Below, in pieces: positions 1 through 31,347 of a stretch of 37,125 bases of DNA (within the stretch, counting starts at the first letter, position 1; each line of letters begins with the position of its first letter). Location: assembly GCA_026461075.1 (NCBI GenBank), contig JAPJNH010000149.1, positions 1 through 37,125 on the forward strand, written 5' to 3'. The position numbers were made by a program, and so were the translations under genes. The notes under the pieces were generated by a model, which did no database searches, had not been told where the DNA came from, and was given only the letters and a program-made list of their open reading frames with translations. The DNA is from Chitinophagales bacterium (lineage in GTDB: Bacteria > Bacteroidota > Bacteroidia > Chitinophagales > CAIODY01).

Positions 1-1862
1 TTAGGCGTTCTAACAATACTCGTTCCATTAGGATCTTCTGTTACCACAGGTAGTACATGCATTCCTGCACCGGCCACAAAGCGATTATTCGCTGTCACCG
101 GCAAATGTCCGGTAACTTCTAAAGCCGATTGCCAAAGCTTAAAAGCGGTATTCGCTGTAAAAATATTGTCTTGATATAATACAGTCAGATTCAGCAAATC
201 AGTGAAGGGGCCCACAAAATAAGGAGAGCCAAATACAAAGAGATGAATTTGATTTTTTGAAGCCTGTAAATCCGTCAATTGTTCAATGAAGGCGTTTGAA
301 AAGCCAAAGTTTTTAGCGGCGAATCGATTGATCAAATGCGCATCAATAATTAACTGATTTTTTCTTGGAAGCAGATAATTGAAAACAGAGTCGGGCATTT
401 GATTCTTGTAGCAGAAATATCGAATTGGACGGTTTGTTTCCTTAGCTGCTAATTGAAAAAATGTACTCATAGTGTCCATTCCAGCCACATACCAGAATAA
501 AGTGTCCGTTGTTTGAAAGTTCCAGTGCTGTAAATTATGAGACTGAAAACTAGTCGCAGCGTGGTCGTACAGATTTTGAATTAAGTTATCATATTGGTTT
601 AGGTCTTGCGTTATATTACGCGGATCAATAGGTTGCCAATGATTGAGTCCTAATTTGTATTTGTAGTAAAGCACTTTCCGAACGCGGTTATCTATCTCCG
701 CTTGCGTTATCAGACCTCTATCGCGGGCATTTAAAATCGTATCTATACTTGCGGGTACATCAGAGACAAACAACAAAATATCATTACCAGCTAATAGAGA
801 TTTTAACGCAACTTGTGCGCCGTTTAGTCCTTGCGCAGCACCTTTCATATTTAATGCATCGGTAAAGGATAATCCATTAAATCGAAGTTCTTTTTTTAGT
901 AAATCGGTTACCACATTTGCCGAGAGCGATGCAGGTGTATTACTTGAATCCAGAACAGGAACAGATAGATGAGCCACCATTACGGATTGCACACCCGCAT
1001 TGAACATTTCCTTGAAAGGACGCAATTCTAAAGAGTCTAAGCGACTTTTAGTAAAATTCAATTTTGGCAAGCCATAGTGTGAATCTGTTTCGGTGTCGCC
1101 ATGACCCGGAAAATGTTTAGCGCAAGCCATTACATTATTAGACTGTAATCCTTTCATATAGGCTATTCCCTTACGCGAGACTAATTTCCAATCATCTCCA
1201 AATGAACGATCATAGATTACAGGATTCATTTTATTATTATTCACATCCACAACCGGAGCGAAATCGATATTTATACCAACGCGACGACACTGCATGGCTA
1301 CAGCAGCCCCCATCTTTTCGATTGCGTATTCATGCAAGTTACCAAATTGCCCATCAGTATCAGGAGGGATTGCTCCTAAGGTCATTTGACGAGGAAAAGC
1401 ATGTACAGAATCCAAACGCATGGCTAGACCCCATTCTCCATCTACACTCACGAAGAGTGGCGTTTTAGCATTTTGATTCATCCGATTGATGAGCATAACA
1501 TGGCGATAAGGTGAGCCTTGCATCATAATTACGCCACCGAGATTATACTGTTTTACCCAATTGATAATTTGACGAGAAAGAACAGAGTCTTTATTCGTAT
1601 AAACGGGCATCATAATTAACTGCGCTATTCGTTCGGTATCGTTCATTGCGGCTAATTGTTGATCAATCCATAAAGCGGTGTCTCCGAAAGTTTTAAAGTT
1701 CGTACTGAGTCGATTCGGCGTCCATTGTATGGCCTGTTCCTTCTTTGCTTTTATCTTTTTGTGTTTGGCCTTACGACGTGTTTTAGCATTCACTTGTAAG
1801 ATGCTAAAAATGACTAATCCGCAAAGCAGGATAAAACTAAATCGGGAAATACTATTTTTCAT
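1..1862 (-). CDS. Secreted GH3 beta-N-acetylglucosaminidase (NagZ-like), 3' end outside window
   Basis: The reverse strand reads openly from an ATG at 1862 to the window edge, giving 620 residues with no stop, so the gene is partial at its 3' end. Residues 1-26 form a signal peptide (hydrophobic core ending VNA). The hallmark KHFPGHGDT...DSH stretch lies at about residues 245-262; its Asp-His pair is the general acid/base of NagZ-type GH3 enzymes. TDALNMKG at about 333 carries the expected Asp nucleophile. Such enzymes release N-acetylglucosamine from peptidoglycan fragments or chitin-type sugars. The visible part is already far longer than E. coli NagZ (about 340 residues) and includes a second, C-terminal GH3-type domain. 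In Bacteroidota such proteins often continue into a class C beta-lactamase-like serine hydrolase domain; whether this one does cannot be seen. It is transcribed divergently from recO across a 99-bp gap. Confidence 0.9.
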   Translation of the reverse strand, partial: MKNSISRFSFILLCGLVIFSILQVNAKTRRKAKHKKIKAKKEQAIQWTPNRLSTNFKTFGDTALWIDQQLAAMNDTERIAQLIMMPVYTNKDSVLSRQIINWVKQYNLGGVIMMQGSPYRHVMLINRMNQNAKTPLFVSVDGEWGLAMRLDSVHAFPRQMTLGAIPPDTDGQFGNLHEYAIEKMGAAVAMQCRRVGINIDFAPVVDVNNNKMNPVIYDRSFGDDWKLVSRKGIAYMKGLQSNNVMACAKHFPGHGDTETDSHYGLPKLNFTKSRLDSLELRPFKEMFNAGVQSVMVAHLSVPVLDSSNTPASLSANVVTDLLKKELRFNGLSFTDALNMKGAAQGLNGAQVALKSLLAGNDILLFVSDVPASIDTILNARDRGLITQAEIDNRVRKVLYYKYKLGLNHWQPIDPRNITQDLNQYDNLIQNLYDHAATSFQSHNLQHWNFQTTDTLFWYVAGMDTMSTFFQLAAKETNRPIRYFCYKNQMPDSVFNYLLPRKNQLIIDAHLINRFAAKNFGFSNAFIEQLTDLQASKNQIHLFVFGSPYFVGPFTDLLNLTVLYQDNIFTANTAFKLWQSALEVTGHLPVTANNRFVAGAGMHVLPVVTEDPNGTSIVRTP

Positions 1863-28014: not shown

Positions 28015-28539
28015 CTACAGAGATTTTGAATACAACACTTTCCAACGAGAATCCTGCTGCTGCTTCACCCATGTTATGTTCTTATAGCCAGCATCACGTA
28101 TGCATTGATTAATCATTTTACTTAACCCTAATGGATAGTCGATAATTCCATTCTCATTTGCTCTAATATAAACGCCATCTGACACTTTAAAAATACCGTT
28201 CATACCTTTAACGGTCAAACCATCGATATAATTACTTGGTAATTGACCTGGCAGGAGTTCTGAAACACCAAATTTTTCATCCAGAACATAAATTTTTTGT
28301 TTAAAATTATTCTCAACTAAACGCCCTCCTTTAAATGTCTCGAAGATTTGTAGAAGAGAGGCTATCCCTGCTGCAACACCCAAAAAACGATGCTGAGGAT
28401 TCTCAGACAGCATCAAAGCACTCGAAAGCAAACCTCCAGCAAAGGTCCTCGTATAGGGATCAACTTTGGGCGAAAGCGATTTTAAACTAGCATAGGCCAA
28501 TGTCCCTACAGCCAATGTTTTTAATTCTTTGTTTTTCAT
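28015..28539 (-). CDS. Unrecognised protein with hydrophobic N-terminal half
   Basis: I do not recognise this 174-residue protein. It starts MKNKELKTLAVGTLAYASLKSLSP without a normal signal peptide cleavage site. Residues 1-70 hold two or three weakly hydrophobic, Gly/Ala/Ser/Leu-rich segments (LAVGTLAYASL, FAGGLLSSALML, FLGVAAGIASLLQIF) that might insert in a membrane or pack as small-residue helices. From about 80 it becomes soluble with mixed charge (KIYVLDEKFGVSELLPGQLPSNYI, then GVYIRANENGIIDYPLG). It ends in a Lys/Trp-rich stretch. It has its own intergenic region upstream and lies 74 bp from the dehydrogenase gene, on the same strand. The long open frame with a proper ATG favours a real gene. 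A phage-derived or lineage-specific protein is possible. Confidence 0.6.
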   Translation of the reverse strand: MKNKELKTLAVGTLAYASLKSLSPKVDPYTRTFAGGLLSSALMLSENPQHRFLGVAAGIASLLQIFETFKGGRLVENNFKQKIYVLDEKFGVSELLPGQLPSNYIDGLTVKGMNGIFKVSDGVYIRANENGIIDYPLGLSKMINQCIRDAGYKNITWVKQQQDSRWKVLYSKSL

Positions 28540-28875
28540 ATTTATAAATTTGATTCTTAAGGATTAAATTTTATTCCAATATTCAGTATCTGTAAAAAAA
28601 CTAATTCAATTAAACTTGTTAAACATAAACTTACATTTTGTAAAAACACCTAATTAATCCGCTAAAAATCACAATCAAAATTTCAGACCGAAAATAGTTT
28701 TAAGCACAATATTTACAGCTTCATTCGCTAACAAATGCACGAATTAACTCGTGCATTTGTTAGTAAACGCAAAATCATTCATTTTTATTTCAACAAAGTC
28801 CTCCTAATTTTAATTATTTCGTTAAATAGCCGATGGAAAGGTATTTTTTCCGAACTTTGCAGTTCTCTAATTTCT
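28540..28875. other. Gene-free intergenic region (336 bp)
   Basis: This is the only stretch of more than 300 bases without a gene in the window. It lies between two divergent starts (28539 minus, 28876 plus) and is AT-rich. It holds the 15-bp inverted repeat at 28728-28763. GAACTTTG at 28852-28859 is a one-mismatch -7 candidate for the receptor gene. On the minus strand I see only weak -7 candidates for the unknown gene. No RNA gene or small open frame is convincing. Confidence 0.7.
28728..28763. repeat. Perfect 15-bp inverted repeat with 6-nt spacer
   Basis: CTAACAAATGCACGA (28728-28742) and its exact complement TCGTGCATTTGTTAG (28749-28763) flank the spacer ATTAAC. Neither side carries a T-run, so it does not look like a rho-independent terminator. 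It sits 113 bp before the outer-membrane receptor ATG and 189 bp before the divergent unknown gene. It could be an operator, an RNA hairpin, a recombination site or a mobile-element relic. Confidence 0.85.
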
Positions 28876-31347
28876 ATGAAAAAAATATCCCTTTTAGTAC
28901 TTGTTTTTAGCGCAATATTCAGCATTTCTTTCGCACAGCAGATGCAAGGCAATATGCCTCCGCAAGGTGCTCGTCCAGCCATCGGCTCCGTTACAGGAAA
29001 GATCTACGATAAAGAAACTAAAGAACTGCTACCCTATGCAGTCATTGAAGTTATTTCAGTGCGTGAAAACAAAACCGTCGCAGGCGCAGTGAGTGATGAC
29101 AAAGGCGCTTTCAATATCACGCAGATTCCCGTTGGGAAAATGACTCTTAAAGTCTCTTTCGTAGGCTATAATGTAAGCACTACAGAGCCTTTTCTCCTAC
29201 TCCCTAACGCTCCTACTAAAAACTTCGATAGCATACTTCTAACTAGAAATCAAAACCAACTCCGTCAGGCACAAATCACTGCGGAAAAGCAGATGCTAGT
29301 GCAAAACCTTGACAAACGCGTATTCAATAACGACCGTAACCTCGTTTCAGCAGGCGGTACGGGCAACGACGTACTCCGTCAAGTGCCCGGTGTAAATGTC
29401 GATATCGATGGAAAGATTTCTCTTCGAGGAAATGAAAATGTAACTATTCTTATCGATGGTCGACCAAGTAGTATTCTAGGTAGCGATAAAAAAAGTGTGC
29501 TTTCCAGTATCCCAGCTGCCTCGATTGAAAGTATTGAAGTTATTACCAATCCAAGCGCTAAATACGCTGCCGAAGGGATGTCTGGTATCATCAATATCGT
29601 GATGAAGAAAAACAAATTACAAGGTTTTAATGGACAAGTAACTGCTTCTGCTGGTACCATCGACAAATATACGGGCGGACTAAACATGAGCTATAGAAAT
29701 AAAAAATGGAATTTCTACGGCAGTTATATGGGCAAAGACGAACATCGTCGTGGAAGCGGTTCTAGCTATCGCGAGACGAATCAATTTGATAGCACCTATT
29801 ATATGTTACAGTCTGCATCGATGCCTTCGGAAAACAAAAACCATTTATTGGGTGCAGGCGCAGAATATAGTCTTGACAAATACACCACTTTCGGAACGCG
29901 TGTAAACTTAAACTTAGAAAACGAAATCCAACCAGAGAACATCGTCTATCGTTACCTAAACGAAGACAGCATCTATACCAATAGCATTTTCAGATTCAAC
30001 GACCAGAACAATAAGAATCAAAACGGGGATATCAACTTCAGCCTACGTAAAAAATTCCCAACGCCTAAAGAAGAGTTAAGTGCTGATTTAACCATTTCGA
30101 ATATGTCGCGTGATGGCCGTCAAGATTATATACAAGAAGACTCGTTACTAAGCATTTTCGCACATAGTGGCATCCGAAGTAAAGCACAAGTGCAAATGAT
30201 CAACGCGCAAGTAGACTATACTGTTCCTAACGGAGAATTCGGTAAATACGAGCTTGGCGGACGTATTGTTCGTCGTCATAGCGACGCAGATTATCTTGGG
30301 CTACTATATCCTAGTACTTCGATGGAAGGCGCTTATATTAATCAAGACATTAGCAACCATTTTGTTTTTACAGAACAGATTTCAGCGGCATATTTGACTA
30401 AGTCAGGTATTTTTAAAAGTTTTGCGTATCAACTTGGTTTACGCGGTGAATACACCCTACAAGATATATTTCTCACCAATAACAGCTTTTTTCAAAAGAA
30501 TCGTTATTTCAACTTCTTCCCAACAGCGATTATCCGTCAACCATTAAGCAAAAAAGATCAAATCCAATTGAGCTATAGTCGTCGTATTAACAGACCAAAT
30601 CCGCAAAGCCAAAACCCATTTTTAGATATCTCCGACCCTCAAAACAAACGTCAAGGAAACCCAGGATTAAAACCTGAATTAGTGCATTCAATTGAGTTGG
30701 GTTATCAAAGAAGCTTAGAAAAATACAGCATCAACGCAAGCCTTTACTACCGTCATAGTAATAATTTACAGATTCGTTATCGTTCAGTTTTACCGGATGG
30801 AACGTCCTTAATTTCTTTCTTGAATGCCTATTCTAGCGATAACTATGGATTAGAGGCAACAGGCAATATGACCTTCAGCAAGAAATGGGATGCGATGTTG
30901 AACCTGAATGTTTATGAATCAAAAATTAACGCTGCCAATATCGAAGCGGATTTACAAAACAATTTCCTTTCTTGGTCGGGTAGATTTAATACGAATTATA
31001 GAATAACGAAGTTCAGTGCCTTGCAAGCTTCTATTAACTATCAAGCGCCGATGGTAATCGCACAAGGAAAGTTTGCATCCACACTGGTTATTTCGGGAGG
31101 ATGGAAAAATGACTTATTCAAAAACCGTCTTAACCTGACTTTGAGTGTGATGGATGCTTTGAGTCAGATGCGTATGGACATGACAACGTCCGGACCAAAC
31201 TTCAAGCAACATTCGATTCGTCGTCGTGATAGAGGGATCGTAATGCTTACTGCAATTTATCGTTTCGGAGCAATGTCCAATGAAATGGCAGGAAAACGCC
31301 CTAGCAGAGGTCGCATGGAAGGAGGTCCTTCCATGGATGACATGTAA
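28876..31347 (+). CDS. TonB-dependent-receptor-like outer-membrane beta-barrel protein
   Basis: Starting from the ATG at 28876, the 823-residue product has a signal peptide (cleavage near SFAQQ). A carboxypeptidase-like regulatory beta-sandwich follows (about 35-125; VTGKIYDKETKELLPYAVIEV, VSFVGYNV), then a plug domain (about 140-240; DVLRQVPGVNVDIDGKISLRG, IDGRPSSILG, IEVITNPSAKYAAEGMSG). The rest is a beta-barrel of the OMP_b-brl_3 kind (NRPNPQSQNPFLD, NPGLKPELVHSIELGYQ). Members of this group lack a known ligand and have no SusD partner; none is present here. An upstream in-frame ATG at 28735 is rejected, since it lies inside the inverted repeat and would bury the signal peptide. GAACTTTG at 28852-28859 may be the -7 element. 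The product ends in a Met/Gly/Arg-rich tail. Confidence 0.92.
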   Translation: MKKISLLVLVFSAIFSISFAQQMQGNMPPQGARPAIGSVTGKIYDKETKELLPYAVIEVISVRENKTVAGAVSDDKGAFNITQIPVGKMTLKVSFVGYNVSTTEPFLLLPNAPTKNFDSILLTRNQNQLRQAQITAEKQMLVQNLDKRVFNNDRNLVSAGGTGNDVLRQVPGVNVDIDGKISLRGNENVTILIDGRPSSILGSDKKSVLSSIPAASIESIEVITNPSAKYAAEGMSGIINIVMKKNKLQGFNGQVTASAGTIDKYTGGLNMSYRNKKWNFYGSYMGKDEHRRGSGSSYRETNQFDSTYYMLQSASMPSENKNHLLGAGAEYSLDKYTTFGTRVNLNLENEIQPENIVYRYLNEDSIYTNSIFRFNDQNNKNQNGDINFSLRKKFPTPKEELSADLTISNMSRDGRQDYIQEDSLLSIFAHSGIRSKAQVQMINAQVDYTVPNGEFGKYELGGRIVRRHSDADYLGLLYPSTSMEGAYINQDISNHFVFTEQISAAYLTKSGIFKSFAYQLGLRGEYTLQDIFLTNNSFFQKNRYFNFFPTAIIRQPLSKKDQIQLSYSRRINRPNPQSQNPFLDISDPQNKRQGNPGLKPELVHSIELGYQRSLEKYSINASLYYRHSNNLQIRYRSVLPDGTSLISFLNAYSSDNYGLEATGNMTFSKKWDAMLNLNVYESKINAANIEADLQNNFLSWSGRFNTNYRITKFSALQASINYQAPMVIAQGKFASTLVISGGWKNDLFKNRLNLTLSVMDALSQMRMDMTTSGPNFKQHSIRRRDRGIVMLTAIYRFGAMSNEMAGKRPSRGRMEGGPSMDDM

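Follow-up and report, generated by a model that had tools for sequence, protein, structure and literature searches.

The perfect palindrome located upstream of an outer-membrane receptor gene in the analysed stretch of Chitinophagales DNA (37,125 nucleotides, the window) was found to be real, yet it was not a receptor-specific feature. It is best explained, with moderate confidence, as a relic REP-like element, that is, as one copy of a low-copy dispersed hairpin (a perfect palindrome no shorter than about 30 bp, accompanied by a GCGTT tag that is mostly on one side) carried by two species of one Chitinophagales genus and spread by a RAYT-type Y1 enzyme. A dispersed family, a minimum palindrome length, the tag, wobble-free covariation, a degenerate Y1 gene nearby and empty sites were all observed. 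According to this explanation, a Y1 (RAYT-like) transposase would have recognised the tip of the hairpin together with the tag and spread the element as single-stranded DNA. The enzyme would later have been lost; none was found in the source genome of the window (G000), and the gene of its nearest congener (G002, a Chitinophagales MAG) is degenerate. The arm pairing would be maintained either through selection on a DNA hairpin or through template switching, with one arm serving as the model for its partner.

This family, from a little-studied genus, has few enough members to be counted, and its sites include orthologous, species-specific and empty ones. It offers a workable case for setting ssDNA-hairpin selection against replication template switching as the way in which perfect palindromes are kept, and also for following the remnants of a REP system after transposase decay. 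Repeats linked to atypical RAYTs of Bacteroidota are given only a few lines in the available passages of PMC6006769.

The palindrome and its neighbouring genes

An earlier note on this DNA had described perfect 15-bp arms with a six-base spacer at 28728–28763, and both the coordinates and the letters proved exact. On the forward strand, the left arm CTAACAAATGCACGA (28728–28742) is followed by the loop ATTAAC (28743–28748) and the right arm TCGTGCATTTGTTAG (28749–28763), and the conserved core GCACGAATTAACTCGTGC, common to the window copy and to other copies, extends over 28737–28754. The one-sided tag, GCGTT on the reverse strand (AACGC on the forward strand), is located 2 nt past the stem, at 28766–28770. 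This was the single inverted repeat of the window with arms of at least 15 and a loop of 3–10, compared with a mean of 0.02 in 100 dinucleotide shuffles. When the 56-nt palindrome stretch was folded as RNA, it reached −24 kcal/mol (z −8.25), and 0 of 200 shuffles were equally stable. The genome-wide search for the arm, which the earlier note had proposed, found the exact sequence (0 mismatches) in G000 at this site only, with four single-arm matches of two mismatches elsewhere; it was the central core that recurred.

The palindrome stands between a divergent gene of 174 aa without a Pfam match (28015–28539, reverse strand) and the receptor gene, with CarboxypepD_reg-like, Plug and OMP_b-brl_3 domains, which by our reading of its start occupies 28876–31347 on the forward strand. 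The mechanical ORF of the receptor begins at 28735, within the hairpin, but the ATG at 28876, with which a signal-peptide-like sequence begins, is by our reading the likelier start. Just before the receptor, at about 28810–28865, a block is conserved in G000 and G002. Bacteroidota promoters carry a −7 box, TAnnTTTG, which is resembled by the putative element GAACTTTG within this block (28852–28859, forward strand), and we take it to mark the receptor promoter. Since this promoter-like block is downstream of the repeat, the hairpin would fall outside the receptor transcript, which makes it unlikely that the repeat serves the receptor as a 5′ RNA hairpin. The window copy, being upstream of the inferred promoter, probably has no dedicated regulatory job.

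Another of the roles proposed earlier was that of an operator for the receptor or the divergent gene; the regulator binding there would be dimeric. A palindrome located between divergent genes, and kept at the orthologous place in G002, would suit such a role. This explanation was nevertheless judged very improbable, because the core was present in the 420 nt upstream of the gene in only one of 77 receptor relatives, namely the congener, and because the variable outer positions change together, something that half-sites acting independently would not require. Furthermore, 23 of the 27 copies are downstream of at least one gene, and the copies other than that of the window are mostly at gene 3′ ends. 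A site-specific inversion or dif/Xer site, to which the two inverted arms and the 6-nt spacer had pointed, deserves almost no credence: there are 27 copies in two genomes and their arms differ, five copies are present in G000 where a Xer/dif site would be expected once per chromosome, and gene order and orientation across the palindrome are identical in both species.

Distribution and anatomy of the hairpin family

Run on 40 relatives, a covariance model derived from 22 copies found five copies in G000 (contigs C81, C87, C63, C20 and C153) and 22 in G002, and no copies in G001, G003 or G004. Weak matches were obtained in G005, G012, G026, G031 and G037, and those displayed mostly resembled ordinary terminators. 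The exact core GCASGAATTAAYTCSTGC was detected in 3 of 396 genomes of the order (G000, G002 and G005, the latter at one site inside an ORF); these genomes were a sample drawn from a larger group, and the restriction to this genus therefore holds for that sample and for the exact pattern. Viral contigs gave 0 exact core matches, phage records gave short matches in 45 of them at an E-value limit of 10 and none with 80% query coverage, and the five matches in Rfam were all below the gathering score. Among the titles and passages available from the literature on Bacteroidota RAYTs, REP palindromes, quasipalindromes and REPINs, none described this hairpin family. Two other identities were rejected: an uptake signal, as GCGTTA and TTTAGTAT showed no enrichment in the sampled DNA, and an integron attC site, suggested by the GCGTTA/TAACGC ends and set aside on polarity alone.

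The anatomy was measured in 26 of the 27 copies, L212 being left out with a loop one base shorter. The core GCASGAATTAAYTCSTGC was present in 24 of these 26, and L155:2740 and L214 carried other, still symmetric, letters. At each of the six outer pairs of the arm (positions 10 to 15 from the axis), pairing was Watson-Crick in 26/26 copies, in a measured set restricted to copies with pairing out to position 11; at position 16, it was down to 16/26. The identity of the outer pairs differed among copies, and G-T pairs were not observed in any of them. As 22 copies had been found by core patterns alone (the other four came from the covariance model), their outer positions were unselected. In the alignment of 22 rows, the 132 cells of columns 9–14 included 44 double changes, 0 one-sided changes and 0 unpaired cells, and the covariation score was 0.493, compared with 0.140 in shuffles and with a maximum of 0.143 when the partner was slid. 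The unusual trait of this family is that pairing within each copy stays perfect even though the outer arms vary between copies. Since neither a G-T pair nor a mismatch occurred in the variable outer pairs, the arm pairing is kept at the DNA level.

These properties also bear on the explanation that the palindromes arose in place, or were maintained, purely through template switching during replication and without a transposase. According to the available parts of PMC8794818, template switching can create and maintain perfect stems, and its expected product is perfect, wobble-free pairing in which changes come in pairs. The window copy and its orthologue L141 do differ through paired changes; by our reading, these were three among seven outer pairs in an ungapped comparison, or one paired substitution and one paired deletion in a gapped one. 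An origin in place would leave the common core, the tag and the position beside a Y1 gene unexplained, and this explanation was considered distinctly unlikely. Within the REP-like reading, template switching could serve as the upkeep of the arms.

The sole interior mismatch was an A.C at position 3, in the loop, which was present in the three GCACG-type copies of G000 and in no other measured copy. The C at 28747, in the loop of the window copy, was found in all three of these copies and in 0 of the measured G002 copies. Two of the three have orthologues of the T form in G002, so the hairpin tips seem to change in concert within a species. The AACGC tag was located at no more than 17 nt from the stem in 18/26 copies (on one side in 17, on both in 1, and on none in 8), with a chance expectation of 2.8% per copy; the resulting binomial P of about 2e-22 treats the copies as independent of shared descent.

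Placement of the copies and empty sites

All 27 copies were intergenic, 15 of them between convergent, eight between tandem and four between divergent genes. The divergent class comprised the window copy (counted there and not as tandem, once the early ORF start of the receptor had been corrected by hand), its G002 orthologue and the two copies beside the Y1 gene.

The preference for convergent genes agrees with the main rival explanation, in which the copies would be bidirectional terminators or 3′-end RNA hairpins with a favoured tip, alike through copying or convergence, and the window copy would terminate or shield a transcript that is upstream or antisense. Among gaps of at least 60 bp without a hairpin at the same loci, 7/55 were convergent (P 1.4e-7 for the 15/27, obtained with a crude gene caller). 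Copies L160, L211, L212, L213 and L214, with A- and T-runs around the stem, were terminator-like by eye, an ordinary terminator of G000 stands where G002 has L213, and most of the weak model matches displayed from other genera were terminator-like as well. By a lenient count, 16/26 copies, the window copy included, reached 5 T within eight bases, either inside the arm or immediately past it. This qualifies the earlier statement that the repeat lacks a T-run, which held for an unbroken run but not for the arm itself, where 5 T in 8 bases occur on either strand.

Despite these similarities, the terminator explanation was judged rather unlikely. The window copy was not listed by the terminator scan of the window and is located between divergent genes, and it consequently does not correspond to an intrinsic terminator (a stem rich in G+C with a T-run behind it, at the 3′ end of a gene); instead, it has the family core and tag, neither of which termination needs. 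Separate terminator-like hairpins, conserved in both genomes, adjoin several of the copies. In addition, the variable stem is free of G-T pairs, though RNA would tolerate G-U.

The flanking gene pieces of 14 G002 copies were sought in G000, and 12 were found. Ten orthologous intergenic regions were compared, all of them shorter in G000. The hairpin was absent from G000 in eight of the ten (L142, L144, L145, L146, L152, L153, L154 and L158), the L213 region contained the ordinary terminator in its place, and an orthologous hairpin was present in both genomes at L156/L211. Concerning the L155 and L157 regions, the covariance model found no copy on the corresponding G000 contigs. Further orthologous hairpins were the pairs window/L141, L159/L143 and L212/L214. 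The empty G000 sites fit a gain in G002, and they may alternatively reflect a loss in G000. No target-site duplication or exact border was readable between filled and empty sites, the intergenic DNA being too diverged. The idea that the repeat is the trace of a small mobile element, also put forward in the earlier note, was supported by the dispersed copies, by the filled and empty sites and by the two copies beside a Y1 gene.

Additionally, L213 and the G000 terminator (L235) had a similar outer stem, AAAAGGC/GCCTTTT, with the family tip on the G002 side, as if the tip had been exchanged.

The Y1 gene and comparison with known repeats

A search with PF01797 in three genomes yielded 0 matches in G000 and two each in G001 and G002. 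Two family hairpins are located 37 and 153 nt upstream of one of the Y1 (RAYT-like) genes of G002; both are on its 5′ side, and no family hairpin was found in the stretch read on the other side. In the 124-aa product of this gene, TRMT replaces the [DE]H.H of its relatives and the YI..Q helix is missing. Lacking an HUH motif and a catalytic tyrosine, this protein should not cut DNA. A search of solved structures with it gave 0 hits. Relatives of the gene were detected in 19/40 genomes at E ≤ 1, including several weak matches, and no Y1 gene was found in G000 either by this search or by that with PF01797. As for the Y1 locus, the stretch read in G000 showed only a more distant hpd match, and in G001 the hpd-hgd pair was kept and no Y1 was found there by tblastn. 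Given that no Y1 was found in G000 and that the catalytic residues are missing in G002, the window copy is probably a relic.

Perfect hairpins were also counted at fifteen Y1 loci (the G002 locus, L167 and 13 from other genera) and at control loci, which came from earlier searches and were a non-random sample. With stems of at least 10, there were 12 hairpins in 19.0 kb at the Y1 loci (in 7/15 of them) compared with seven in 105.3 kb of control; with stems of at least 9, the counts were 20 (in 8/15 loci) and 12. Among the Y1 loci of other genera, a hairpin with a stem of at least 9 was present within 500 nt in 6/13 and in none of the other 7/13.

Several observations weigh against the REP-like reading: the degenerate Y1 gene has hairpins on one side only and no counterpart in G000, 7/15 Y1 loci are hairpin-free (stem of at least 9, 500 nt), 8/26 copies are tagless, no target-site duplication was readable and several copies (L160, L211–L214) are terminator-like. 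A different proposal, which we regard as unlikely, is a repeat recognised more by its shape than by its sequence, in which the tip and the tag would be read, the arms would be rewritten in pairs at the DNA level and the tips would be concerted per species, the degenerate Y1 protein having been domesticated as a hairpin-binding protein devoid of nuclease activity.

As for known systems, the available parts of PMC6006769 describe TnpA_REP genes of subclass 2.6, mostly from Bacteroidetes, with atypical hairpins on their flanks that lack GT[AG]G and of which further copies occur elsewhere in the genome. The present family shares with them the Bacteroidota host, the missing GT[AG]G foot and, in G002 only, hairpins next to a Y1 gene that recur at other places in the genome; this likeness is one of description. 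In contrast to subclass 2.6, the Y1 gene beside these copies no longer has the HUH motif or catalytic tyrosine, and no such gene was found in G000. The hairpins are also long and perfect, with outer arms that vary freely, whereas the structures of that subclass are termed weak in the same passages.

The family resembles the canonical GTAG REPs and their RAYTs, as presented in the available parts of PMC3733652, in its short intergenic palindromes, in the tag at one end, in the link to a Y1 transposase and in the existence of subfamilies with alternative complementary stem residues. Canonical GTAG REPs often show G-T pairing according to that source, whereas the variable stem has none here, GTAG is missing and the GCGTT tag is 1–12 nt from the stem. 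Neither GTAG nor GTGG was present at the 5′ foot of the hairpin, which in the window reads ...TTCATTCG on the forward strand and ...GCGTTTA on the reverse strand. The palindromes are dispersed and intergenic like REPs, but their five and 22 copies are few for such elements, for which more than 100 copies per genome are usual according to the passages available from PMC2817692.

Other REP-like loci were observed in these genomes. At L167 (contig C32 of G002), a second Y1 gene (1381–1857, reverse strand) with the HUH motif and tyrosine intact was accompanied by four hairpins of another kind, three of them around CCCCATTGGCTTTAGTCCAATGGGG then GACATTT, which makes it a second REPtron-like locus. 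A longer Y1-type protein (SNHIH) is encoded at 776–2289 of L170 (contig C271 of G001) among GTAGTC-containing hairpins, closer to the canonical GTAG REPs. At L168 (contig C124 of G001), the Y1 gene starting at 1489 is broken early, with 23 codons from the start to the first stop.

The repeat of another relative, G020 (L181), is likewise a palindrome, perfect and centred on TTAA, that stands near a Y1 gene and has many copies, several of which are preceded by GCGTAA or similar. Unlike the present family, its stem CTATGGACTT is constant in the perfect copies, the other copies having mismatches. It was therefore rejected as a parallel for the free arms, and its constant stem, which counts against the REP-like reading, indicates that RAYT systems do not in general have arms that change freely. 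In G020 (L181, L239–L253), the TATGGACTTAAGTCCATA repeat was found at 17 places per strand; three of these are around a Y1 gene, and on contig C16 some of the copies were arranged in a run, about 100 nt apart.
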